Assembly: GCF_000661955.1 (NCBI RefSeq)
Contig: NZ_CP007597.1
Span: forward strand, 2,163,605-2,227,604
Reading direction: 5' to 3'
DNA from: Stenotrophomonas rhizophila
GTDB taxonomy: Bacteria > Pseudomonadota > Gammaproteobacteria > Xanthomonadales > Xanthomonadaceae
Length of the DNA stretch: 64,000 nucleotides
Below are positions 19,819 through 42,507 of this stretch, piece by piece; position 1 is the stretch's first letter, and each line of letters opens with the position of its first letter. A program made the translations under genes and the position numbers. Below the pieces are notes generated by a model, which was not told the DNA's origin, ran no database searches, and saw only the letters and a list, made by a program, of their open reading frames with translations.

Positions 19819-21014
19819 ACGACAGCACGCAGGCACGCACGGTGCGCGACGACGACAATGCCGTGGTGGGCGATGCCGCCGTCACCACGCCGTTTCTGCT
19901 GCGTGCGCCGTTGCGCTCGCTGCACACGCAGGGGTGCCGAGCGCGGCTGCCGGCCGGTGGCACCGCCACCCTGGCCGCGCGCGTAGCTGCCTTTTTCGCT
20001 ACGCCGCGCGCCGGCCTGCCGCTGCTGGTTGGCGCGCTGCCGTTCGATCCTGACGGTGACGACGCGCTGCACCAGCCGCAGGCACTCTCGACCGCGGCGC
20101 TGCCATCCGCGCCGCCGGCAGCGACCTTCAACGGTCGTATCGCCGCAGAACCCAGTGCCGCGCAGTACGCAGACGCGGTGGGCGCGGCGTTGCATGACCT
20201 GCAGCAGCCGGCACCGGCGCTGCACAAGGTGGTGCTGGCCCGCAGCCTGCTGCTGGACGGCGCGCAGGACGTCGATCCGCACGCCCTGGCCGCGCGCCTG
20301 GGCCACGACCCCAGCGTGGCCACCTATCTGGTGACGCTGCCCGGCGGAACGCAGGAACCCCCGGCGTGGCTGGTGGGCGCAACCCCCGAACTGCTGGTGT
20401 CGCGTCGCGGCGCGCGGGTGCTGTCGCATCCACTGGCCGGTTCGGCCCGGCGCCATCCCGACCCGGCCGAAGATGCACGGGTGGCGCAGGCACTGCTGGC
20501 CTCGGCCAAGGACCACGACGAACACCGCCATGTAGTGGAGGCCATCGTGGCGGCACTGGCGCCGTGGTGCAGCCACATCGAGGCCGAGCCGCGGCCCTCG
20601 CTGCATGCCACCGCCACCATGTGGCACCTGGGCACGCGGATCGAGGCCACGCTGGCCGACGCGCGCACGCCGGTTGCCGCGCTGGTGGCCGCGCTGCATC
20701 CCACCCCGGCCGTGTGCGGTACGCCGCGCGCGCTTGCGCTGCGCACCATTCGCCAGCTGGAACCGGTGCCGCGCGGCTTCTATGCCGGCGCGGTTGGCTG
20801 GACCGATGCCGACGGCGATGGCGACTGGTACGTGGCGATCCGCTGCGCCCGTGTGCAGGGCCCGCAGGTGCGTGTGTACGCCGGCGCAGGCATTGTTGCC
20901 GGCTCACTGCCCGCGCTGGAAGTGGCCGAAACAGACGCCAAATTCGGCGCCGTGTTGAACGCTCTGGGCGTCGATGCGCTGCCTTCCATACGCGTTAACG
21001 GAGTTGGTTCCTGA
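19815..21014 (+). CDS. entC: Isochorismate synthase
   Basis: A 399-residue chorismate-utilising enzyme. Late motifs are diagnostic: [47 protein letters not shown] and [25 protein letters not shown]. It converts chorismate to isochorismate, the first committed step to 2,3-dihydroxybenzoate. The N-terminal region is divergent, as is usual for EntC. ATG 19815 overlaps the preceding stop, and its own stop overlaps entE by 1 bp. Confidence 0.92.
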
Positions 21015-22666
21015 TGAACGAAAGTGCTTCCCCCGCGCTGGTGCCGTTGCGCCAGAGCTGGCCGCCGGCCCTGGTGGCGCGCTATCGCGCCGCCGGCCAC
21101 TGGCGTGGCGAAACCCTGCCGGGCGTGCTGCGCGAGCGGGCCACCCTGTTTGCCGATGACATTGCCGTGGTCGGCCGCGAGGTGCGGCTGAGCTACGCGG
21201 CGCTCTGGCAGGAGGCTGGCCGGATCGGTGCGGGCTTGCTGGCGCGCGGTCTGGTGCCGGGCGACCGGGTGGTGGTGCAGCTGGGCAATACGCCAGCATT
21301 CGTGACGGTGGTCTGCGGGCTGTTCCGGGCCGGATTGATTCCGGTGTACGCATTGCCGGCGCACCGATTCACCGAGGTGCGCCATGTGCTGGACAAGGCG
21401 CAGGCACGCGGGTACATCGCGGCGGACAGGCAGGACGGCTTCGATTACCGCGTGCTGGCGCGCGAACTGCAGGCGTTGCTGCCAGCGCTGCAGCACGTGC
21501 TGATCGTCGGCGACGCGGCCGAGTTCGGCGCGGTGGACAGCCTGCAGGGCGACGCAGCGCTGTTGCCGCCCGACCCGGACCCGCAGTCGGTGGCATTCCT
21601 GCAGTTGTCGGGCGGCAGCACCGGCTTGTCCAAGCTGATACCGCGCACCCATGACGACTACATCTATTCGTTCCGCGCCAGCAACGACATCTGCGGCATC
21701 ACGCGCGACAGCGTGTACATGGTCGCGCTGCCCGCGGCGCACAACTTCCCGATGAGCTCGCCCGGTTTCCTGGGTGCGTTGTATGCCGGCGCGCGCGTGG
21801 TGATGAGCCCGGGCCCCGGGCCTGACGCGGCCTTCCCGCTGATCGCGCGCGAGCGCGTGACCTGCGTGGGGCTGGTGCCGCCGCTGGCCTTGCTGTGGGC
21901 GCAGGCCGCGGCCACCACTGCGCACGACCTGGGCAGCCTGCAGGTGCTGCAGGTGGGAGGCGCCAAGCTGGTGCCGGAAGCGGCGCACCGGGTGATCGAC
22001 AGCCTGGGCTGCCGTCTGCAGCAGGTGTTCGGCATGGCCGAAGGCCTGGTCAACTACACCCGCCTGCACGATCCGCTGGACGTGGTGGTGGGCACCCAGG
22101 GTCGGCCGATCTCGCCCGACGACGAGGTGCTGGTGGTGGACGACCACGGCCACCCGGTCGCGGAAGGCGGCATCGGCCACCTGCTCACGCGGGGCCCGTA
22201 CACCATTCGCGCGTACCACAACGACCCGGCCGCCAACGCGCGTTCGTTCACCGAGGATGGCTACTACCGCACCGGCGACATGGTGCAGCAGTTGCCCGGT
22301 GGCTACCTGGTGGTGCAGGGCAGGGCCGGCGACCATATCAACCGGGCCGGCGAGAAGATCTCCGCCGAGGAGATCGAAGACCATCTGCTGGCCCATGCCG
22401 AGGTGTTCGATGCCGCGGTGGTCTCGATGCCCGATGCCTTCCTGGGGGAACGCAGCTGTGCGTTCGTCATTGCGCACGGCACCCCGCCCACCGCCGCCAG
22501 CCTCAAGGCCTGGGTACGCGGGCGTGGCCTGGCCGCGTTCAAGGTGCCCGACCAGGTGGTGTTCGTGGAGGCCTTCGGCACCACGGCGGTGGGCAAGATC
22601 AGCCGCCGTGAACTGCGCGCGCAGCTGCGCGAACGTTACCTTGAACAGACAGGAGAACCGCGCTGA
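21014..22666 (+). CDS. entE: 2,3-dihydroxybenzoate-AMP ligase
   Basis: A 550-residue adenylating enzyme. The phosphate loop [18 protein letters not shown] is nearly that of E. coli EntE, with later motifs [19 protein letters not shown] and [20 protein letters not shown]. The C-terminal Lys in [13 protein letters not shown] is the adenylation lysine. It activates 2,3-dihydroxybenzoate with ATP and loads it onto the carrier protein encoded at 23298. It starts on the last base of the entC stop and overlaps entB by 1 bp. Confidence 0.95.
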
Positions 22667-32008: not shown

Positions 32009-32746
32009 TCAGTCCTCCAGCGTGGCATTCCAGAACGCCTGCAGCACCCCCGGCAGGGCCATCAGCGTGGCCAGCACCGCATCCAGTTCGGCGGCGTCCA
32101 CGGCTGTCGCGTACAGCACCGCTTCGATCTCCACGTCGCGGTCGCCGAACGGGCGCGGATCGACCGCGCGCACCGGGTAGTGCGCCTGTTCCAGCAGCAC
32201 CAGCAGCCGGTCCAGGACGTCGGCCTGGTGCTCGCGTTGGCAGACCACCGTGACCGCGTACGTGGCCTCGCTGAAGGACGCCTCCACCGGCTGGCGCTGG
32301 ATGCGGTTGACCACCGGCCGCAGCAGCGTATTGGCGGCCAGCACGAACAGCGCGGCCAGCAGCGCTTCGGGCAGCAGCTTGACGCCGGCGCAGGCGCCGA
32401 CCGCCGCCGAGCCCCACAGCGTCGCCGCGGTGTTCAGCCCGGACACCTGCGCACCGTCCTTCATGATCGCGCCGGCGCCCAGGAAGCCCACCCCGGAGAT
32501 GACGTACGCCACCACATGCAGCGGCGAGGGCGGACCGCCGTACAGGTCGTGGAAGCGCACGGCCAGGTCCACGAACACCGCCGCGCCCACCGCCACCAGT
32601 GTGTTGGTCCGCAGGCCGGCGGTGCGCTGGCGCAGCTGACGCTCCAGGCCGATCGCCGCGCCGAGCACGAAGGCCGTGCCCAGGCTGATCAGGGTGCTGA
32701 TCGTGGCCCCGGCGTTGAACGCCGGCAGGTGCGGGTTGAAGTCCAT
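32009..32746 (-). CDS. mgtC: MgtC/SapB-family membrane protein
   Basis: A 245-residue protein. The N-terminal four-helix MgtC domain has GLERQLRQRTAGLRTNTLVAVGA and VISGVGFLGAGAIMKDG, the family signatures. A C-terminal soluble ACT-like domain follows (AVTVVCQREHQADVLDRLL). MgtC proteins help growth at low Mg2+ and modulate ATP synthase in some bacteria. ATG 32746 overlaps the mgtA stop by 1 bp, so the two are translationally coupled. Confidence 0.9.
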   Translation of the reverse strand: MDFNPHLPAFNAGATISTLISLGTAFVLGAAIGLERQLRQRTAGLRTNTLVAVGAAVFVDLAVRFHDLYGGPPSPLHVVAYVISGVGFLGAGAIMKDGAQVSGLNTAATLWGSAAVGACAGVKLLPEALLAALFVLAANTLLRPVVNRIQRQPVEASFSEATYAVTVVCQREHQADVLDRLLVLLEQAHYPVRAVDPRPFGDRDVEIEAVLYATAVDAAELDAVLATLMALPGVLQAFWNATLED

Positions 32747-35496
32747 CACTGCCACCCGTAACGGCGGATGTAGACCTTCTTGAGCAGCGTGGTCAGCACC
32801 GCATAGCCGAACAGGATCGCCACCAGGAACGGCCAGTAGCCGGGCGGCAGCGCCTGCAGCTTGAAGTAACCGGCCAACGGGCTCATCGGCAGCAGCACGC
32901 CGATGGCCATGATCAACCCGGTCATCAGCAGCAGCGGCGGGGCAGCGATGCTCTGCACGAACGGCACCTTGGGCGTGCGGATCATGTGCACGATCAGGGT
33001 CTGGGTGAGCAGGCCCACCACGAACCAGCCGGACTGGAACAGGCTCTGGTCGGCCGCCGTGCGCGCATCGAACACGTACCACATCAGCGCAAAGCAGCTC
33101 AGGTCGAAGATCGAACTGATCGGGCCGAAGAACACCATGAAGCGCCCGATGTCGGCCGGGTTCCACTTCAACGGCTTGCGCACCAGTTCCTCGTCGACGT
33201 TGTCGAACGGAATGGCGATCTGCGAGATGTCATACAGCAGGTTCTGCACCAGCAGCTGCAGCGGCAGCATCGGCAGGAACGGCAGGAACGCCGAGGCCAC
33301 CAGCACCGAGAACACGTTGCCGAAGTTGGAGCTGGCGGTCATGCGGATGTACTTGAGCATGTTGCTGAAGGTGCGCCGGCCCTGCACCACGCCTTCCTCG
33401 AGCACCATCAGGTTCTTCTCGAGCAGGATGATGTCGGCCGCTTCCTTGGCGATATCCACCGCGCTGTCCACGCTGATGCCGATGTCGGCCGCCCGCAGTG
33501 CCGGGGCATCGTTGATGCCGTCACCCAGGAACCCCACCACCTTGCCCTGTGCACGCAGGGCACGTACCAGGCGTTCCTTGTGCAGGGGCGTGAGCCGGGC
33601 AAACACGCGATGCCGGCCCAGCGCGTCGGCCACCGCGGCTTCGTCCATGCGGTCGATCTGCGGACCGGTCACGATGCCGTCGGCGTGCAGCCCCACCTGG
33701 GCACACACCCGCGCGGTGACCAGTTCGTTGTCGCCGGTGAACACCTTCACCTCCACGCCCAGCCCGGCCAGCGCCTGCAGCGCCTGCGCGGTCGATTCCT
33801 TCGGCGGATCGAGGAACGCCACGTAGCCGAGCAGGGTGAGGTCCTGCTCATCGGCCTGCGAGTACACTTCGCGCGTGGCGGGGACTTCCTTCATGGCCAC
33901 CGCGACCACGCGCAGGCCCTGTTCGTTGAGCTCCTCGGTGGTTTGGCGCACCCGTGCCAGCCGCTGTGTATCCAGCGGCAGGTCTTGGCCGTTTTCGCGC
34001 ACGCGGCTGCACACGGCCAGCATCTCTTCCACCGCGCCCTTGCACACCAGCTCATGGTGGTCGTCGCGCTCGGACACCACCACCGACATGCGGCGGCGTT
34101 CGAAGTCGAACGGAATCTCGTCCACCTTGCGGTAGTCCTGGGCCAGGCGAAGCTCGGTCTGCAGTTCCACGTGCTCCAGCACGGCGCGGTCGAGCAGGTT
34201 GGTCAGCCCGGTCTGGAAATGGCTGTTGAGGTAGGCAAATGCCAGCACATCCTGCGAGTCGTTGCCGTACACATCGGTGTGCCGCTCCAGCGCGATGCGG
34301 TCCTGGGTGAGCGTGCCGGTCTTGTCGGTGCACAGCACGTCCATCGCGCCGAAGTTCTGGATTGCATCCAGGCGCTTGACGATCACTTTGCGCCGCGACA
34401 GCAGCACCGCGCCCTTGGCCAGGGTGGAGGTGACGATCATCGGCAGCATTTCCGGGGTAAGCCCGACCGCCACCGACAACGCGAACAGGAAGGCTTCGGT
34501 CCAGTCGCCCTTGGTCACGCCGTTGACCAGCAGCACGAACGGCACCATCACCAGGGCGAACCGGATCAACAGCCAGCTGACACTGTTGACCCCGGCCTGG
34601 AACGCGGTGGGCGCGCGTTCGGTGGCGGTGCTGCGCTGGGCAATGGTGCCGAAGCAGGTGCGGTTGCCGGTGGCCAGCACCACGGCCGTGGCCGAGCCGG
34701 ACACCACGTTGGTGCCCATGAACAGCAGGTTGGGCTGCTCGAGCAGGTTGGGCTGGGCCGGGTCGGGGGCGGCGAACTTCTCCACCGGCAGCGATTCGCC
34801 GGTCATCGCCGCCTGCGCCACGAACAGGTCCTTGGCGTTCAGCACGCGGCAGTCGGCGGGGATCATGTCGCCGGCCGACAGCACGATGTGGTCGCCAGGT
34901 ACCAGGGCCCGAATCGGCAGCGAGCGCTGCTGCGCGTACCGCGGCGTGCAGGGTTCAGCGCCGGTGTCCTGCAAGGGTGCAGCATCGCCGTCTGGACGGC
35001 GCAGCACGCGGGCGTTGTTGCCCACCAGCGCCTTGAGCCGTTCCGCCGCACGGTTCGAACGCCCTTCCTGGATGAACCGGATCAGCGTGGACAACACCAC
35101 CATGGTGCCGATCACCACCGTGGCCTTGACGTCTTCGGTCAGCCAGGACACCACCGCCAACAGGGTGAGCAGCAGGTTGAACGGATTGCGGTAGCACTGC
35201 CACAGGTGACGCCACCACGGCAGCGGCTTTTCGTGATCGATCTCATTGGGGCCTACGCGGGCCAACCGGGCATCGGCCTCATCGCTGGCCAGGCCATCGG
35301 GGTGCGACGCTACCGCCGCCAACGCGGCCGCCACCGGCACCTGTGCCAGCCGCCGCAACGCATCGCTGAAATCGGTCGGTACCGCGCCGGCCGCACCGCG
35401 CCCCATGCCGGCGTCGGGCAGGACGCGGCGACGGAACAGGCTGGCGGCACGGCGGCTGCGCAGGAAGGCATCGAACCATGCATTGAGCAGGGTCAT
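32746..35496 (-). CDS. mgtA: Magnesium-translocating P-type ATPase
   Basis: A 916-residue P3B ATPase. The phosphorylation motif is VLCTDKTGTLTQDR with D391. The TGES actuator loop (AMTGESLPVEK) and GDGINDAPALRAADIGISV hinge motif are present, and ten membrane helices are expected. It imports Mg2+ at the expense of ATP. AAGGAG precedes ATG 35496. It is followed by mgtC and preceded by a 99-residue gene at 35592, all in one direction. No leader riboswitch like that of Salmonella mgtA was recognised. Confidence 0.94.
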   Translation of the reverse strand: MTLLNAWFDAFLRSRRAASLFRRRVLPDAGMGRGAAGAVPTDFSDALRRLAQVPVAAALAAVASHPDGLASDEADARLARVGPNEIDHEKPLPWWRHLWQCYRNPFNLLLTLLAVVSWLTEDVKATVVIGTMVVLSTLIRFIQEGRSNRAAERLKALVGNNARVLRRPDGDAAPLQDTGAEPCTPRYAQQRSLPIRALVPGDHIVLSAGDMIPADCRVLNAKDLFVAQAAMTGESLPVEKFAAPDPAQPNLLEQPNLLFMGTNVVSGSATAVVLATGNRTCFGTIAQRSTATERAPTAFQAGVNSVSWLLIRFALVMVPFVLLVNGVTKGDWTEAFLFALSVAVGLTPEMLPMIVTSTLAKGAVLLSRRKVIVKRLDAIQNFGAMDVLCTDKTGTLTQDRIALERHTDVYGNDSQDVLAFAYLNSHFQTGLTNLLDRAVLEHVELQTELRLAQDYRKVDEIPFDFERRRMSVVVSERDDHHELVCKGAVEEMLAVCSRVRENGQDLPLDTQRLARVRQTTEELNEQGLRVVAVAMKEVPATREVYSQADEQDLTLLGYVAFLDPPKESTAQALQALAGLGVEVKVFTGDNELVTARVCAQVGLHADGIVTGPQIDRMDEAAVADALGRHRVFARLTPLHKERLVRALRAQGKVVGFLGDGINDAPALRAADIGISVDSAVDIAKEAADIILLEKNLMVLEEGVVQGRRTFSNMLKYIRMTASSNFGNVFSVLVASAFLPFLPMLPLQLLVQNLLYDISQIAIPFDNVDEELVRKPLKWNPADIGRFMVFFGPISSIFDLSCFALMWYVFDARTAADQSLFQSGWFVVGLLTQTLIVHMIRTPKVPFVQSIAAPPLLLMTGLIMAIGVLLPMSPLAGYFKLQALPPGYWPFLVAILFGYAVLTTLLKKVYIRRYGWQ

Positions 35497-35591
35497 GGGG
35501 AACTCCTTGAAAGTCATGCGACACCGGGCAGCACGGCACGGGTCGGGATGCAGGGCTGCGCGCGGCCCGTCAGGACGTGGCCGCGCGGGGA

Positions 35592-35891
35592 TCAGGCGTG
35601 CTGGACGCTGGCGATGGGGAACGACCAGCGCGGGCGCGCCGGGTGCGGGCTGCCGCGCGAACACAGCGGCAGCAGCGCGGTGCGCAGGGCGGCGGGCAGG
35701 TGGCGCAGCACGTGCAGGCGTTCGGAGATCGGCAGCAGGCTCAGGGCGTCGGCGATGACGCGCTCGGAGCCCAGGGCCAGGGCGCGCGCGAACAGCGGGG
35801 CGCCGTGCTGCAGCAGCTGGCTGCGCAGGCCGGCCACGTCGCGATCAAGGATCAGGCGACGCAGGGTGATGTAGAGAATCTTGTAGTGCAT
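35592..35891 (-). CDS. Small protein upstream of mgtA, MgtE-N-like helical repeat
   Basis: A 99-residue protein starting MHYKILYITLRRLILDRDV at ATG 35891, with GGAGG at good spacing. No signal peptide. The segment VIADALSLLPISERLHVLRHLPAALRTALL resembles the helical repeats of MgtE N-terminal domains (leucine-rich with LP turns). The tail from about 80 is Pro/Arg-rich. It is 95 bp upstream of mgtA in the same direction, so it may sense or regulate Mg2+ transport. This is inference from position and a weak pattern. Confidence 0.65.
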   Translation of the reverse strand: MHYKILYITLRRLILDRDVAGLRSQLLQHGAPLFARALALGSERVIADALSLLPISERLHVLRHLPAALRTALLPLCSRGSPHPARPRWSFPIASVQHA

Positions 35892-36199: not shown

Positions 36200-36871
36200 T
36201 CAGGCCTTGGGGGTGCGGGCGCGGCGCGGCTTGGGGATACGGCCCACGTCACGCGCAGGCGTGGCTGTGCGCGGTTGCAGCTGTTCCAGCCAGGCCAGGT
36301 TGTCCAGGTACATCAGGAAGTGCTGCAGGTAGCCCGGCGACAGCTCGCTCATCAAGGTGAGCGAGCGGTGCACCAGCACCGCCGAGTTCAACGGGCCGCC
36401 ATCGCCGGGGCCCTGCGCCAGCGAGATGCGCTTCTGGCTTTCATTGCGCACCGTGGCCCACAGATCACGGAATTCGCTGATGGCCGGCAGCGCGGGGAAT
36501 GCCGGGGCCGGGGCGGTGTCGAGGGGGGCATCACGCGGCACCGGCGGTGCCTGCGTCTGTGCATGCGCGGCCAGCGTTGCCAGCAGGCCCGACAGCGGAC
36601 TGGCGCGTTCGGCACCCGGGGCTGGCGCGCCCCGCCCTCGACGCGGCGCGCGCGCGGTCTGTTCGGCAATGCGCGCCGCATACGCTGCCACCATCATGAC
36701 CAGCCGCGCATCCAGCAGCTTTCGCACCGCGCCCTGCTGTGCCTGCGCACGGGTCTGCAACGCCTCGATCACCGCAAAGCCCAGCGGGTCGTGGCGGTCC
36801 AGCTGCTGCTGGCGCCACGCATCGAGCTGCGCACTCACCGGCATCGGCGTCGATTTGGCCTTAGGGGGCAT
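36200..36871 (-). CDS. DUF2894-type protein, last gene of the motor operon
   Basis: A 223-residue soluble protein beginning MPPKAKSTPMPVSAQLDAWR, with an Arg/Ala/Pro-rich middle and a more conserved C-terminal half (FRDLWATVRNESQKRISLAQ, MSELSPGYLQHFLMYLDNLAWLEQL) ending in a basic tail. This fits the DUF2894 family, which in related bacteria accompanies DUF802 and DUF3348 genes. It overlaps the MotB/OmpA-like gene by 11 bp. No catalytic motif is seen; it may be a cytoplasmic adaptor of the motor. Confidence 0.75.
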   Translation of the reverse strand: MPPKAKSTPMPVSAQLDAWRQQQLDRHDPLGFAVIEALQTRAQAQQGAVRKLLDARLVMMVAAYAARIAEQTARAPRRGRGAPAPGAERASPLSGLLATLAAHAQTQAPPVPRDAPLDTAPAPAFPALPAISEFRDLWATVRNESQKRISLAQGPGDGGPLNSAVLVHRSLTLMSELSPGYLQHFLMYLDNLAWLEQLQPRTATPARDVGRIPKPRRARTPKA

Positions 36872-37505
36872 CGGCGGCCGTGGCTTTCGGCCGCGGAATG
36901 GGCGCCATTTCAACGCGGCGATTGCGTGCGCGCCCGGCCTCTTCGGCGTTGGAGTCCACCGGTTGCTCGGCACCAAAAGCGGCGGCAAACACCGCCGAGG
37001 CGGGCACGCCTTCGGCAATCAGGGCGCGGGTGACGGTGAGCGCGCGCTCGGCCGACAGCGCCCAGTTGTCGGCGAACTGGCGGTTGCCTTCACGCACCTG
37101 GCGATCATCGGTGAAGCCGCTGACCATCAGGATCTCTTCGCGCGAGGACAGGTACTCGGCCAACGGGCCGGCCAGGCTCTTGAGCAGCTCGCGGCCTTCC
37201 GGCTGCAACTGGTCGGAATTCAAGGCGAACAGCACGCTGCCGCGGATGCCGATGCGGCCATCCACGATCGTCACCCGCCCGGCCGCCAGCGGCACGGCCA
37301 GCGCCTGCTCCAAGGTCTTGCGGCGCTGGGCTTCGGCCTGGCGCTGCTTGACCTCGTGGTCCAGCCGGTTGGACAGTTCCAGCTGCAGCGCCACCACGCC
37401 GACCAGGATCAACACGAAGGCGCCCAGCAGCACCGACATCAGGTCACCGAAGGCAGCCCAGATCGGTGCGCCGGATTCGCCGTCGACCTCGATCTCGTCG
37501 CTCAT
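36861..37505 (-). CDS. MotB/ZorB-like OmpA-domain protein
   Basis: A 214-residue protein. A short N-terminus is followed by one membrane helix PIWAAFGDLMSVLLGAFVLIL with a membrane-embedded D21 in the position of the proton-binding Asp of MotB/ZorB. A linker and an OmpA-like peptidoglycan-binding domain follow (LFALNSDQLQPEGRELL, VSGFTDDR, WALSAERALTV, ARNRRVEM). It should anchor to the cell wall and form the ion channel with the protein encoded at 37502. It overlaps that gene by 4 bp. Confidence 0.85.
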   Translation of the reverse strand: MSDEIEVDGESGAPIWAAFGDLMSVLLGAFVLILVGVVALQLELSNRLDHEVKQRQAEAQRRKTLEQALAVPLAAGRVTIVDGRIGIRGSVLFALNSDQLQPEGRELLKSLAGPLAEYLSSREEILMVSGFTDDRQVREGNRQFADNWALSAERALTVTRALIAEGVPASAVFAAAFGAEQPVDSNAEEAGRARNRRVEMAPIPRPKATAADAP

Positions 37506-40063
37506 GCGGTGGCGGCCCCGGCCGGGTCGGCGCTGCGGCGCGCGCCCAGCTGCTGCAGTTCTTCGATGATCTGCTTCTGCGACAGCACGCTCAGGTCGAT
37601 GACCTCGCGCGCCTGGGCCACGTAATAGGCCAGCTGTTCATCGCTGCGCGCCAGCGACGCGTCCAGCGCGCCACTGATCTGCTCGAGGCGCTCGCCCAGC
37701 CCGCTGCTGGCGCTGCCGAACACCTGCATGGCACCGCCGAACGCGTCGGCCAGTGCGGCCACTTCCACCGCGCTGCCGGTGACCTGCGCGGCAACGTCGC
37801 CCAGCTTGCCGGTTTCGGTAGCGAGGTGGTCGGTGAAGCGCGTCCCCACCCGGTCGAGCAGGTCGGCCGAGGTGGTCACCAGTGCGTCAACGGCGGTGCG
37901 TTGTTCAGTGGAGGCATGGTTGACCGCATCCAGCAGCGTTTCCAGCGTGGCCAGCAGGCGGCTGCGTTCTTCCAGCATGGCGGTGTCGCGGACCATGCTG
38001 TCAGACAGCTTCTGGCGCAGCTGGGCCACCACGTCGGCGGCGGCCTTCGGCGCTTCGGAGGCGACCTGCACCAGCCGCGAGATCTCGGCGATGGTGTCGC
38101 TGGCGTGGGCCTGGGTCTGGGTGGTGATCTCCTGCGCGGTCCGCGACAGCGTCTCGCAGATGTCCTGCTGGCGGCGCGCGACCTGTTCGCCGGTCTGCGC
38201 CCATTGCTGGGCCAGCGAGGTGGACAGTGTGCCGAACGCATCGCTCCACGCGGCCAAGCGCTGCCCATCGCGCGCTTCCAAAGCGTCCTGCAAGGTGGCG
38301 TGTGCCTGCTGCATCGTGTCGGCGAGCGTGCGGGCGTGCGTATCGAAACTACCGGCGACGGCGGTCAGTGCCTGCTCGTTGCGCGCGGCGCTGCTGGCGT
38401 GGGTGGCGGCCTGCTGCGCCAAGGCATCGCGCCATGCGTCGGCGTGGTTGCGGGTGCTGGCATCCAGACGATCGGACAACGCCTCCAGCAGGGCACCGGC
38501 CCGTGCGTCGTGGGTCTGGGTGAAGCCCTGCAGCGTGCTGTCCAGCCCGCCGATCAGCGCGGCATGGGCCTGCTGCTGGCTCTGCTGGCTGCTGTTCCAC
38601 CGCTCGGCGGTGGCGTCCAGGCGGCTGGCCAGGGCGTCGGCCAGGCTGCCGGCCTGCTGCTGGTGCTGGTCGGTGAAGCGCGCCAGTGCGTCGCGCAGTT
38701 CCACCACCAGTGTTTCATTGCTGCGCTGCTGTGCAGCCTGCGCGGTGGTCCAGTTGCCGGCACTGGTGTCCAGGCGCTGCGCGACCCCGTCCAGCAGGCG
38801 CAGGGCGTGCTGGTCATGGCTGTCGCTGAACTGCTGCAGGGTCTGGCGCAGGTCGGCGGTGAGCGCCTGATGGGTCTGCTGCTGCGCCTCCTGCGCGGTG
38901 GCCCAGTGGTCCACGTTGGCCGCCAGGCGCGACGACAGCGCATCCAGCAGGCCGAGCGCGCGTTGGTCGTGCTGCGCGGTGAGATGCTCCAGCGCTGCAC
39001 GCAAATCCGTGGTGAGCGCCAGGTTGGTCTGCTGGTGGGCGGCGATCGCGCTGTTCCAGCTGTCCGCGCTGGCCGCGCGACTGGCCTCGAAGCCGGCGTT
39101 GAGACCGTCCAGCTGGCGCTGCACGGCCTGCCCCACATCGCGCTGCAGGGCGATCGTTTCGGTGGCGATGCCGCGCAGGGTGCTGTCCATGATCGGCTGC
39201 AGCGCCTCGCCCACGGCGCGAGCGCTGGCGGCGATGCTGTCTTTCAGCGCCAGCTCGACCGCACTCGCCAGCCGGGCGTGTTCGGCGTCGGCCTTGGCAT
39301 GGAAGCTCTCCTGGCTGGACAGCAGCTGCTGGTTGGCCTGCAGGCTCTGCTGCTCGATGGCAGCGGTCATCGCCTGCAGGCGGTCGACCAGCGCCGGCAT
39401 CAGCGCGGCCTGCGCCTGTGCAAGGCGGAACGCCTCGCTGCGCTGCCACGCCTGGGAATGCGGGTGCAGGTCGGTGGCCACGCGTGCATCAAGTACCTGC
39501 ACGGTCTGCAGGCGCTCGCGGCGGCACAGCGCCGACAGCAGCCCGAGCATCGCCGAGGTCGCCACGCCGGCGATGGAGGTGCCAAAGGCCACGGCCAGGC
39601 CTTCCACCGGCGCCCCGAGCGAGCCGCGGATGGCCTGCAGGTCGGTGGCGCTCTCCAGCGCCAGCCCGGTGCCGCGCAGCGTGGCCATCATGCCCAGCAG
39701 GGTGCCAAGCATGCCCAGCAGCACCAGCAGCCCCACCAGGTAGGGCGTCAGCACCGGGGCGGGCAGGGCAACGCGCTCGCCGTCCACGCGCAGGCGCACC
39801 GCATTGCGCAGGCTCGCCGGCACGCGCTGCAACCAGGCGCCCAGATCCTGCTCGGCCGCCGACACATCGGCCAGGGCCTGGCCCAGCCCCGCGGTGGCCT
39901 GGCGGTAGCGGAACAGCTCGAGGCCACCGGCGGTGTAGCAGGCCGCGATCACGAGGGCGACTGCGAAACCTACCGGGTTCGACCCCAGGTACCCCACGCC
40001 GATCCAGCACGCGGCAAACAGACCTGCAAGGAAAACAACGAGATAAAGACTAGTTCTGAACAT
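37502..40063 (-). CDS. MotA/ZorA-like motor protein with long coiled-coil tail (DUF802-type)
   Basis: An 853-residue protein. Four membrane helices at about 5-25, 31-50, 106-128 and 155-178 carry the MotA/TolQ/ExbB pattern (GMLGTLLGMM; GLAVAFGTSIAGVATSAMLGLL). The remaining 650 residues are cytoplasmic and strongly helical. Residues 334-538 are four tandem 51-residue repeats with a conserved Trp near each start, TxDLRxxL, and LLDALxxRLD at each end. The design matches ZorA, where a MotA-like pentamer carries a long tail, but no zorC/zorD gene is nearby. It is 10 bp after the DUF3348 gene. Confidence 0.82.
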   Translation of the reverse strand: MFRTSLYLVVFLAGLFAACWIGVGYLGSNPVGFAVALVIAACYTAGGLELFRYRQATAGLGQALADVSAAEQDLGAWLQRVPASLRNAVRLRVDGERVALPAPVLTPYLVGLLVLLGMLGTLLGMMATLRGTGLALESATDLQAIRGSLGAPVEGLAVAFGTSIAGVATSAMLGLLSALCRRERLQTVQVLDARVATDLHPHSQAWQRSEAFRLAQAQAALMPALVDRLQAMTAAIEQQSLQANQQLLSSQESFHAKADAEHARLASAVELALKDSIAASARAVGEALQPIMDSTLRGIATETIALQRDVGQAVQRQLDGLNAGFEASRAASADSWNSAIAAHQQTNLALTTDLRAALEHLTAQHDQRALGLLDALSSRLAANVDHWATAQEAQQQTHQALTADLRQTLQQFSDSHDQHALRLLDGVAQRLDTSAGNWTTAQAAQQRSNETLVVELRDALARFTDQHQQQAGSLADALASRLDATAERWNSSQQSQQQAHAALIGGLDSTLQGFTQTHDARAGALLEALSDRLDASTRNHADAWRDALAQQAATHASSAARNEQALTAVAGSFDTHARTLADTMQQAHATLQDALEARDGQRLAAWSDAFGTLSTSLAQQWAQTGEQVARRQQDICETLSRTAQEITTQTQAHASDTIAEISRLVQVASEAPKAAADVVAQLRQKLSDSMVRDTAMLEERSRLLATLETLLDAVNHASTEQRTAVDALVTTSADLLDRVGTRFTDHLATETGKLGDVAAQVTGSAVEVAALADAFGGAMQVFGSASSGLGERLEQISGALDASLARSDEQLAYYVAQAREVIDLSVLSQKQIIEELQQLGARRSADPAGAATA

Positions 40064-40073
40064 GACGTCCCAG

Positions 40074-40772
40074 TTATCGGGGGCGAAGCGCTGCAAGCAG
40101 GCCTTCGATGGGGTGAAAACGAACATCCAGTTCGGCCAGCAACACGCTCTGCATCGCGTGGTTGAACCGCTGCCGCCAGCCGTCGTCGGCCGGCACCGCG
40201 TCGGCGTCGGTAGGCTCGCCTTCGACCGGGGGTGGCAGCGCCGCGTTGCGCAGCCGCTCGAAGTGCTGGGCAAGCAGCGTCGGCACCGTGGCCAGCAAGG
40301 CCTGCTCGCGCGGGCTCAAGGTGTGCTCCATCACCGCATCCACCTCGGCCAGCCGCCCCAGTTCGGGGCCGGCCAGGCTGAGCATGTCGCGCAGGCGCCC
40401 ACGCAGCCGCCCGGTGTTGGCCTGCATCGAGCGCTGCAGGGCAACGACGCGCTGGCGGATCGCCGCCACATCGTCGCTGGCGCCCGGCTTCGGCGGGTCA
40501 GGTTGCTGAACAATGGCCGCTTCCAGTACCGCACGTACCCGCGCGCATTCGGCCGCCTCGGCGGCATCGAACGCGACCGCCTCGGCAGGCGGGGGCGGCA
40601 CCCGGCCGTCCAGCGCCCGCGACAGCGCCACCGCACGGTTCCAGTCGACCCACTGGCTCAGGCGGTCGGACAGGTCCGGGCTGGTCGGCGTTGCCTGGCC
40701 GTCGGCCAATCCGGCCAACAGACGGATGAACGCGGGGCCGGGCAGGGGCGGGCGGTGCTGCGTTTTCGCCAT
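40074..40772 (-). CDS. DUF3348-type protein, first gene of the motor operon
   Basis: A 232-residue soluble protein starting MAKTQHRPPLPGPAFIRLLAGLAD. It contains LSDRLSQWVDWNRAVALS, then a long helix VAAIRQRVVALQRSM and a C-terminal segment WRQRFNHAMQSVLLAELDVRFHPIEGLLAAL. It fits DUF3348, known mainly from genes beside DUF802 proteins. No membrane helix or enzyme motif. It heads the operon, with an AT-rich dyad at 40777-40804 just upstream as the likely promoter/operator. Confidence 0.75.
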   Translation of the reverse strand: MAKTQHRPPLPGPAFIRLLAGLADGQATPTSPDLSDRLSQWVDWNRAVALSRALDGRVPPPPAEAVAFDAAEAAECARVRAVLEAAIVQQPDPPKPGASDDVAAIRQRVVALQRSMQANTGRLRGRLRDMLSLAGPELGRLAEVDAVMEHTLSPREQALLATVPTLLAQHFERLRNAALPPPVEGEPTDADAVPADDGWRQRFNHAMQSVLLAELDVRFHPIEGLLAALRPR

Positions 40773-40839: not shown

Positions 40840-42507
40840 TTAGTCGGCGCCACCCTCCGCCTTGCCTGCGTCGGCGTCGTCCGGCGCAAGGTAGCGGAAG
40901 GTCCATTGCCGCGGCTGGCGCTGCCAGCGCTGGTGGCGCAGCCGCAGGGCGGCGATCGGCGCCGCCGTGGCGATCTCCAGGCGGTGGGGCTGGCGCATGC
41001 GTTCCCAGTGCAGCGGCGACTGCGCCGGGTCGCCCGGGTGGGCATCGGCCAGTGCCAGCGCGCCTTGCACATCGACCATCGCCGCCGGCATCTCACGGCC
41101 CTGCGCATCCAGCGGTACCGCGGTGGTCCAGTAGCCCCCGGTACCTTCGCGCCAGGGCAGCGGCTGCTGCACGGTCACCCGGGTGGGCGAGGTCCACTGC
41201 ACCTGCGCGTTCGGGTTGCGCCGCGAGAGGGTGCCCGGGGCCAGTGTTTCCACCTCGGTGCCCAGGTAAGTGTCCACATCGACATCCAGGCGGATCCGGC
41301 GGATGGCGTCCACCTGGCTGCCGCGCGTGTTCAGCGGCAGGCGGAACGGGAACGCGATGTCCTTTTCGTCCGCATGGAAGTCGCCCACCAACACCCAGGG
41401 ATCCTGCACCGGTTGCGCGGCGAGGTTCGACAGGCGTTTGCCCTTGGCATCGAAGAAGTGCACGGCACGCGGGGTGGCCGCGGCGATGGCGGGCGCGGCC
41501 GGGGCGTCGCGGGTGGGGACACTGGTGCCGACGCGACCGGCGATGCGGATCAAGGGGCGGCCGTCGCGGTAGTCGCGGTTCACCGCGAACATCAGGCTGG
41601 CTTCGGTCTGCTTCAGTGCCGCCATGTCCAACAGCCCGGGCACGCGCTCCTCCGGCGGCGCCGCCGGGTAGTCGTCGGCATTGGACGACAGCGCCGAGAA
41701 CGGCGGTGCGTCGAGGTGCGCCTGGATCATCGTCGGGTACGTCTCCACGATGCTCTCGGTTTCCAGGCGCTGCAGCGGGTCCAGGTCCATCCGCGCCAGG
41801 TACATCCGCTGCTCGGTGGCAGGCAGGTCGTCTCGGGGTGCCAGCGTCAGGTGCATCCGCGCTTCGATCGGCATGCCGTCGGCACGCTGCAGCACCTGCC
41901 GGCCGTGGCCCTGCACGCCGGTACCGGCCAGCTCCACGCTGACCACTACTTCGGCCGGGGTCAGCGACTGCACCTGCATCTGCGAGGTCAGTTCGCCGAA
42001 GTCACGAGTCTGGGCGCGACGCGTGATGCGCTGGCCAACGTCCAGCTGGGCAGGCAGGGCCAATGGCTGCAGGCCGCCCAGCTGCTGCTCGGCGTTGATC
42101 AGGCGCGCGGCCTGCGGCTGCAGGGTCACGGTGTCGTGCCAAGCCTCCTGGTCGACGGCGCGCATGCCCGTGCTGGTGCCGTCAGCGGCCACGGTGAGCT
42201 CGAAGCCGCCGTCCAGCAGTGCCAGCATCGCGCGCTCGTCGCCCACCTCCGGATCCAGATCCAGCACCGTCTGTCTGTCGCCGGGGGCCTGCTGCTCGGA
42301 CCACAGGATGCGCGTGCGCAGCCGAGTGCTGCCATCGCCTGCGGTGTCGATCGCCAGGCTGCTGAGGCTGCGCTGCCGGAAGGTGCCGCGGTCCTGACCG
42401 GCCAGGCGGATATCCAGGCCGACGTAGTACACGTTCTCGGCTGCCAGCAGCGGCGCGGCGCCGCACAGCAAGGCAGCGCCCAGCAGCAGGGTGGGGAGGG
42501 GTTTCAT
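40840..42507 (-). CDS. Exported protein of unknown function
   Basis: A 555-residue protein with a clear signal peptide (MKPLPTLLLGAALLCGAAPLLA, then A-E-N-V-Y-Y). The body is rich in beta-type segments, with many Arg/Asp pairs (LDLDPEVGDERAML, IRRIRLDVDVDTYLGTEVETL) and no recognised catalytic motif. The C-terminal third contains PWREGTGGYWTTAVPLD. It is probably periplasmic or outer-membrane-associated. It stands 67 bp upstream of the motor operon in the same direction, so a link is possible but unproven. Confidence 0.75.
   Translation of the reverse strand: MKPLPTLLLGAALLCGAAPLLAAENVYYVGLDIRLAGQDRGTFRQRSLSSLAIDTAGDGSTRLRTRILWSEQQAPGDRQTVLDLDPEVGDERAMLALLDGGFELTVAADGTSTGMRAVDQEAWHDTVTLQPQAARLINAEQQLGGLQPLALPAQLDVGQRITRRAQTRDFGELTSQMQVQSLTPAEVVVSVELAGTGVQGHGRQVLQRADGMPIEARMHLTLAPRDDLPATEQRMYLARMDLDPLQRLETESIVETYPTMIQAHLDAPPFSALSSNADDYPAAPPEERVPGLLDMAALKQTEASLMFAVNRDYRDGRPLIRIAGRVGTSVPTRDAPAAPAIAAATPRAVHFFDAKGKRLSNLAAQPVQDPWVLVGDFHADEKDIAFPFRLPLNTRGSQVDAIRRIRLDVDVDTYLGTEVETLAPGTLSRRNPNAQVQWTSPTRVTVQQPLPWREGTGGYWTTAVPLDAQGREMPAAMVDVQGALALADAHPGDPAQSPLHWERMRQPHRLEIATAAPIAALRLRHQRWQRQPRQWTFRYLAPDDADAGKAEGGAD

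Follow-up and report, generated by a model that had tools for sequence, protein, structure and literature searches.

Among the closest described systems is Zorya type III, which the available part of its 2021 description defines as ZorA and ZorB together with a DUF3348 and a DUF2894 protein (PMC8565338). The type was named there from 6,401 gene pairs, printed as zorBC, that are flanked by DUF3348 and DUF2894 genes; a copy from Stenotrophomonas nitritireducens, cloned in Escherichia coli BL21-AI, protected against phage, and the two flanking proteins were proposed to be regulators of ZorAB that replace ZorC, ZorD and ZorE (PMC8565338). Zorya type III is also named in the accessible text of a second study, according to which defence by types I and II requires peptidoglycan binding by ZorB, the ZorA tail and Asp24 of ZorB, and a ring of serine and threonine residues surrounds the ZorB aspartate (PMC11890865). 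Its authors suggest that in these two types a phage disturbs the wall and ZorAB then recruits an effector, and they make the general suggestion that all Zorya subtypes recruit a nuclease-like complex (PMC11890865). In the portions of the type III literature that were available, we found no explanation of how the phage is stopped.

In this study, we analysed a four-gene operon of Stenotrophomonas rhizophila that lies within a stretch of 64,000 nucleotides, here called the window, to which all coordinates refer. Its features are the following.

40772-40074 (-): first gene, DUF3348 protein, 232 aa; PF11828 247 bits, PDLC00658 277 bits
40063-37502 (-): ZorA3, MotA-like membrane protein with a long cytoplasmic tail, 853 aa; PDLC00649 1129.8 bits, PF05650 in five stretches
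38474..39091 (-): residues 325-530 of ZorA3, four tandem units of about 51 residues, from self-comparison and repeat profile
37505-36861 (-): ZorB3, MotB-like protein with one transmembrane helix and an OmpA-type domain, 214 aa; PDLC00651 382 bits, PF00691 69 bits
36871-36200 (-): last gene, DUF2894 protein, 223 aa; PF11445 167.5 bits, PDLC00652 217 bits

The four reading frames, which occupy 40772-36200 on the minus strand in the order DUF3348, MotA-like, MotB-like and DUF2894, are open throughout, as checked by translation; by their coordinates, a 10-bp gap separates the DUF3348 gene from zorA, zorA and zorB overlap by 4 bp, and zorB and the DUF2894 gene by 11 bp. Each of the four proteins is recognized by a PADLOC model for Zorya type III. 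For ZorA, the best type I and type II models reach 44.2 and 22.9 bits against the 1129.8 bits of the type III model, and for ZorB 65 and 24 bits against 382 bits, while the Pfam matches of the two accessory proteins stand far above their cut-offs of 25 bits each. Judged by these matches, the operon is a Zorya type III system on the Stenotrophomonas chromosome, a kind known since 2021, and the find is mostly ordinary because the type had already been described in that year. We hold it to be very probable that the locus as a whole is explained as a type III Zorya in which ZorA and ZorB form an ion-driven motor and the helical accessory proteins serve as adaptors or regulators. Protection against phage by type III rests on the S. 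nitritireducens copy, and for the present locus it would be expected by likeness. The names of the accessory proteins are swapped between sources: in the available part of PMC8565338, ZorF is the DUF3348 and ZorG the DUF2894 protein, and in PADLOC-DB (PDLC00652-00658) ZorG3 is the DUF3348 and ZorF3 the DUF2894 protein.

An initial annotation, made from the DNA letters, had described four co-directional genes with overlaps or gaps of 4-11 bp, a tail of about 650 residues on the MotA-like protein and a membrane aspartate at position 21 of the MotB-like protein. Translation, Pfam and the coordinates bear out this layout, the tail length follows from 853 minus about 205 residues, and translation places the aspartate as described; the likeness to ZorAB that had been proposed is likewise supported by the PADLOC models of ZorA and ZorB. 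The motor had further been called undescribed, which does not hold in view of the type III matches and of the definition given in the available part of PMC8565338. The absence of ZorC, ZorD and ZorE from the operon was correctly noted; it is no anomaly because, in the same text, type III is defined without these proteins. The two accessory proteins, then said to have no known role, are named components of the type with a proposed regulatory role (PMC8565338, as far as available). No match to ZorC, ZorD or ZorE was found among the four operon proteins or 20 other open reading frames of the window (PADLOC, 1e-5), nor did the sole ZorE2 model tried (PDLC00643) match in the strain's own genome. 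The same model gave short, weak matches in 14 of 91 genomes of the genus, the best with 33.9 bits over 67 of 282 positions. As a separate observation, one genus genome contains a match to the ZorB2 model at 47.8 bits (G079:C2:32029-32667; next same-genus match 33.4), perhaps a second, non-type III Zorya, in an assembly rated 10% contaminated.

The constancy of the gene order was examined in 40 regions, all from genomes with a DUF3348 match. Twenty were taken from among the 86 other Stenotrophomonas genomes with such a match and 20 from among 61 matching genomes elsewhere in the family, the latter 20 representing 11 genera. All 40 show the genes co-oriented as DUF3348-ZorA-ZorB-DUF2894, with both accessory genes adjacent to zorAB as in the window, so that the neighbourhood check proposed with the initial annotation came out in favour of a constant four-gene order. 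Because the order is constant in 40/40 regions and dN/dS lies below 0.4 for each gene, the grouping of the four genes exceeds chance. It is barely conceivable that the operon is a type I or II Zorya that decayed after the loss of ZorC, ZorD and ZorE. The weaker matches of ZorA and ZorB to the type I and II models speak for such decay; however, the type III models are ahead by hundreds of bits, none of the four genes is interrupted and all are under purifying selection, and we rejected this explanation on the type III PADLOC scores and the association with DUF3348 and DUF2894 genes in every region fetched.

The surroundings of the type III operon are far less constant. The operon is followed downstream by genes for a Mg2+-translocating P-type ATPase (TIGR01524, 1321 bits) and an MgtC-family protein at 32009-35664 (-); upstream are a 555-aa protein at 40840-42507 (-) and a methylpurine-DNA glycosylase. 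For the 555-aa protein, neither Pfam (at 0.001) nor NCBIfam (at 1e-20) gave a match, and the 40 regions contain no same-strand counterpart. Flanking genes of the window's operon recur in only three of the 40 regions, MgtA and MgtC following the operon in L065, L066 and L073 too, and the methylpurine glycosylase with its neighbour lying upstream also in L065 and L066; other clades seem to share other flanks, in data that are noisy. The 20 other open reading frames of the window, which were selected mostly by length and whose status as genes is partly unverified, gave no PADLOC match at 1e-5, and no defence island is visible among them. Elsewhere in the window, a protein encoded at 21014-22666 (+) resembles a dihydroxybenzoyl-adenylate synthase (TIGR02275, 653 bits, under the cut-off of 723.55), which suggests a catechol siderophore locus. 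A further explanation is a hitherto undescribed motor anchored in the cell wall that serves transport, as the initial annotation had offered beside defence, or secretion. The MotA/MotB architecture and an operon that carries neither nuclease nor helicase are in keeping with such a motor, but each of the four proteins belongs, by its matches, to a named defence type that has experimental support in the available part of PMC8565338, and none of the five flanking genes tested in the 40 regions is a constant neighbour; we therefore regard a transport function as very improbable.

The point that stands out and merits pursuit is the near-fixation of type III within the genus. Among 91 Stenotrophomonas genomes, the present one included, DUF3348 is found in 87 and DUF2894 and ZorA3 in 88 each, and the same three genomes, G016, G021 and G070, have none of the three. 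G070 is 76% complete, G016 and G021 99-100%; a further genome, G030, is without DUF3348 alone, and its ZorA match starts at base 3 of a contig, where the assembly thus breaks off. For comparison, HSDR_N, a domain of type I restriction systems, occurs in 47/91 of these genomes, some of the matches being weak. At the family level DUF3348 was found in 70 of 198 genomes and 18 of 54 genera, and at the class level in eight of 369 genomes, three of the eight belonging to the genus (own genome included) and one to the family. Near-fixation across the genus, together with the lack of PADLOC matches among the 20 other reading frames, would not be expected of a purely defensive, mobile system.

It might be argued from this distribution that the operon encodes mainly a housekeeping motor of the envelope, tethered to peptidoglycan and maintaining or sensing the wall, and that phage protection in E. 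coli is a by-product of expression from a plasmid. The presence in 87-88 of 91 genomes with the joint absence of the genes from the same three, the contrast with HSDR_N and the window's lack of other PADLOC matches all fit this explanation. On the other hand, a related type III copy lowered plaquing in E. coli (PMC8565338, in the part available), the other two Zorya types, I and II, act in defence, the two nearly complete genomes G016 and G021 do without the operon genes, DUF3348 goes unmatched in 128 of 198 family genomes, and the flanks of the window are rarely shared.

The same explanation draws some support from descent and selection. Trees were built for 30 genomes, 21 of them of the genus, from the four Zor proteins (ZorA with its first 300 residues only) and compared with gyrB; nine of 27 splits are common to both. 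Of gyrB splits with support of at least 95, 6/9 are found in the zor tree, and of the equally supported zor splits nine of 19 are found in the gyrB tree and ten are absent there, no strongly supported splits of the two trees being in mutual conflict among these 30 genomes. The correlation of zor and gyrB distances is modest (rho 0.29, equalled by 9/1000 permutations; within the genus rho 0.32, equalled by 2/1000). Over nine pairs, dN/dS was 0-0.12 for ZorB, 0.10-0.28 for ZorA, 0.15-0.35 for DUF3348 and 0.17-0.39 for DUF2894, values that place all four genes under purifying selection. The tree data and the turnover of the flanks are compatible with mainly vertical descent plus relocation, a fit rather than a proof. 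The lack of conflict with gyrB and the strong constraint on ZorB would suit a housekeeping motor, and with the evidence on both sides taken together we consider it unlikely that housekeeping is the main function. A routine envelope role alongside defence is possible, and unproven.

Returning to the operon as a Zorya defence motor, ZorB has the parts expected of such a machine. Pfam identifies its OmpA domain, solved MotB and PomB chains match approximately residues 66-210, and Asp21 is invariant in all 41 copies, the window included, as are many residues of the OmpA domain. The motor core of ZorA is less readily recognized by general models: its MotA_ExbB match (PF01618) reaches 17.5 bits, under the cut-off of 22.9, the DUF802 match (PF05650, 96.5 bits) falls in the five tail stretches, and no solved chain matches by sequence at E 0.1. 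Thr121, Thr162 and Ser163 of ZorA are invariant in 41/41 aligned copies, again with the window, and we take them, from the MotA/ExbB pattern, to be residues of the ion path. Every copy has the combination that a MotAB-type motor requires, namely hydroxyl residues in ZorA and a membrane aspartate in ZorB.

ZorA consists of a conserved core, a variable middle with a 51-residue repeat and a conserved distal end. In the 41 copies, the most frequent residue has a share of 0.88-0.96 at residues 101-175, a share that then declines through the tail, column occupancy at residues 376-550 is on average 0.05-0.8, and conservation climbs again to 0.78-0.90 at residues 651-750 and 0.92 at 801-825. Self-comparison peaks at an offset of 51, the repeats falling mostly within the length-variable part. 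The four units of the window recur as four in L073, and the same profile detects three in L065, L066, L070 and L072, which are about 800 aa long and from the same part of the tree; L060, L062 and L067, of similar length (about 800 aa), have one or two units only, as do most copies of 695-700 aa. These counts suggest that tail length may change by whole units of about 51 residues, a statement limited to close relatives because the profile, built from the window's ZorA, becomes less sensitive in more distant copies and whole units do not account for lengths such as 709, 737, 778 and 885. The tail is amphipathic, with periods of 3.70 residues in its proximal part, 3.64 in the repeats and 3.56 in the distal part, equalled by at most one of 500 shuffles, a periodicity that would be expected of long coiled bundles.

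Both accessory proteins are predicted to be all-helical, with no strands, in single-chain models of middling confidence (pLDDT 73.6 and pTM 0.67 for DUF3348; 72.0 and 0.38 for DUF2894), and no reliable fold match was found for either model by structure comparison. The two proteins may be adaptors or regulators rather than enzymes, a reading that is weakly based because the models are middling and offer no reliable structural relative. The closest DUF3348 protein found, 96% identical, is from Stenotrophomonas rhizophila. In four same-genus regions (L076-L079), the DUF2894 protein has only 145-173 aa, whereas the remaining 37 of 41 copies have 190-271 aa; these four, whose start sites were picked automatically, also match less of the family's N-terminal part.

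In types I and II, other work has established a 5:2 assembly of ZorA and ZorB. By homology, ZorA and ZorB of the present operon would form an inner-membrane, ion-driven rotary motor of the same 5:2 composition, and ZorB would take hold of peptidoglycan through its OmpA domain once the cell wall is disturbed by a phage. Ions would then flow past Asp21 of ZorB and Thr121 and Thr162 of ZorA, and the ZorA pentamer would turn with its long helical tail; all steps after ion flow are ones that we infer. The conserved distal part of the tail most likely carries a signal or docks the DUF3348 and DUF2894 proteins, and these might act by bringing in a nuclease of the host, by changing the membrane or by gating the motor. 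It may be, and we offer this as a speculation that is rather doubtful as a whole, that type III in Stenotrophomonas is a nearly fixed, mainly vertically inherited motor responding to wall tension with both envelope and defence functions, in which the ZorA tail is a lever of adjustable length: the motor and the distal part, which engages the two helical partners, would stay fixed, and the stretch between them would be lengthened or shortened by units of about 51 residues. The locus raises two questions, how a Zorya system with no recognizable nuclease or helicase stops phage and why type III is nearly fixed in a genus in which HSDR_N is present in about half of the genomes, and we suggest looking for answers in the two helical partners and in the conserved distal end of ZorA.

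Compared with known systems, ZorB shares with the MotAB and PomAB flagellar stators a protein that combines an aspartate in a single transmembrane helix with an OmpA domain, whereas the stators are not known to have either the tail of about 650 residues or the two DUF partners. Zorya types I and II, as far as the available texts describe them, share the MotA/MotB-like core, the long ZorA tail, the membrane aspartate of ZorB and the OmpA-type domain; they carry ZorCD or ZorE, however, and the present operon has no ZorC, ZorD or ZorE. With a ZorA of 853 aa and four repeat units, the locus stands close to the upper limit of the 662-890 aa spanned by 41 type III copies, and its four components are the same as those in the available definition of Zorya type III, with no difference in composition (PMC8565338).
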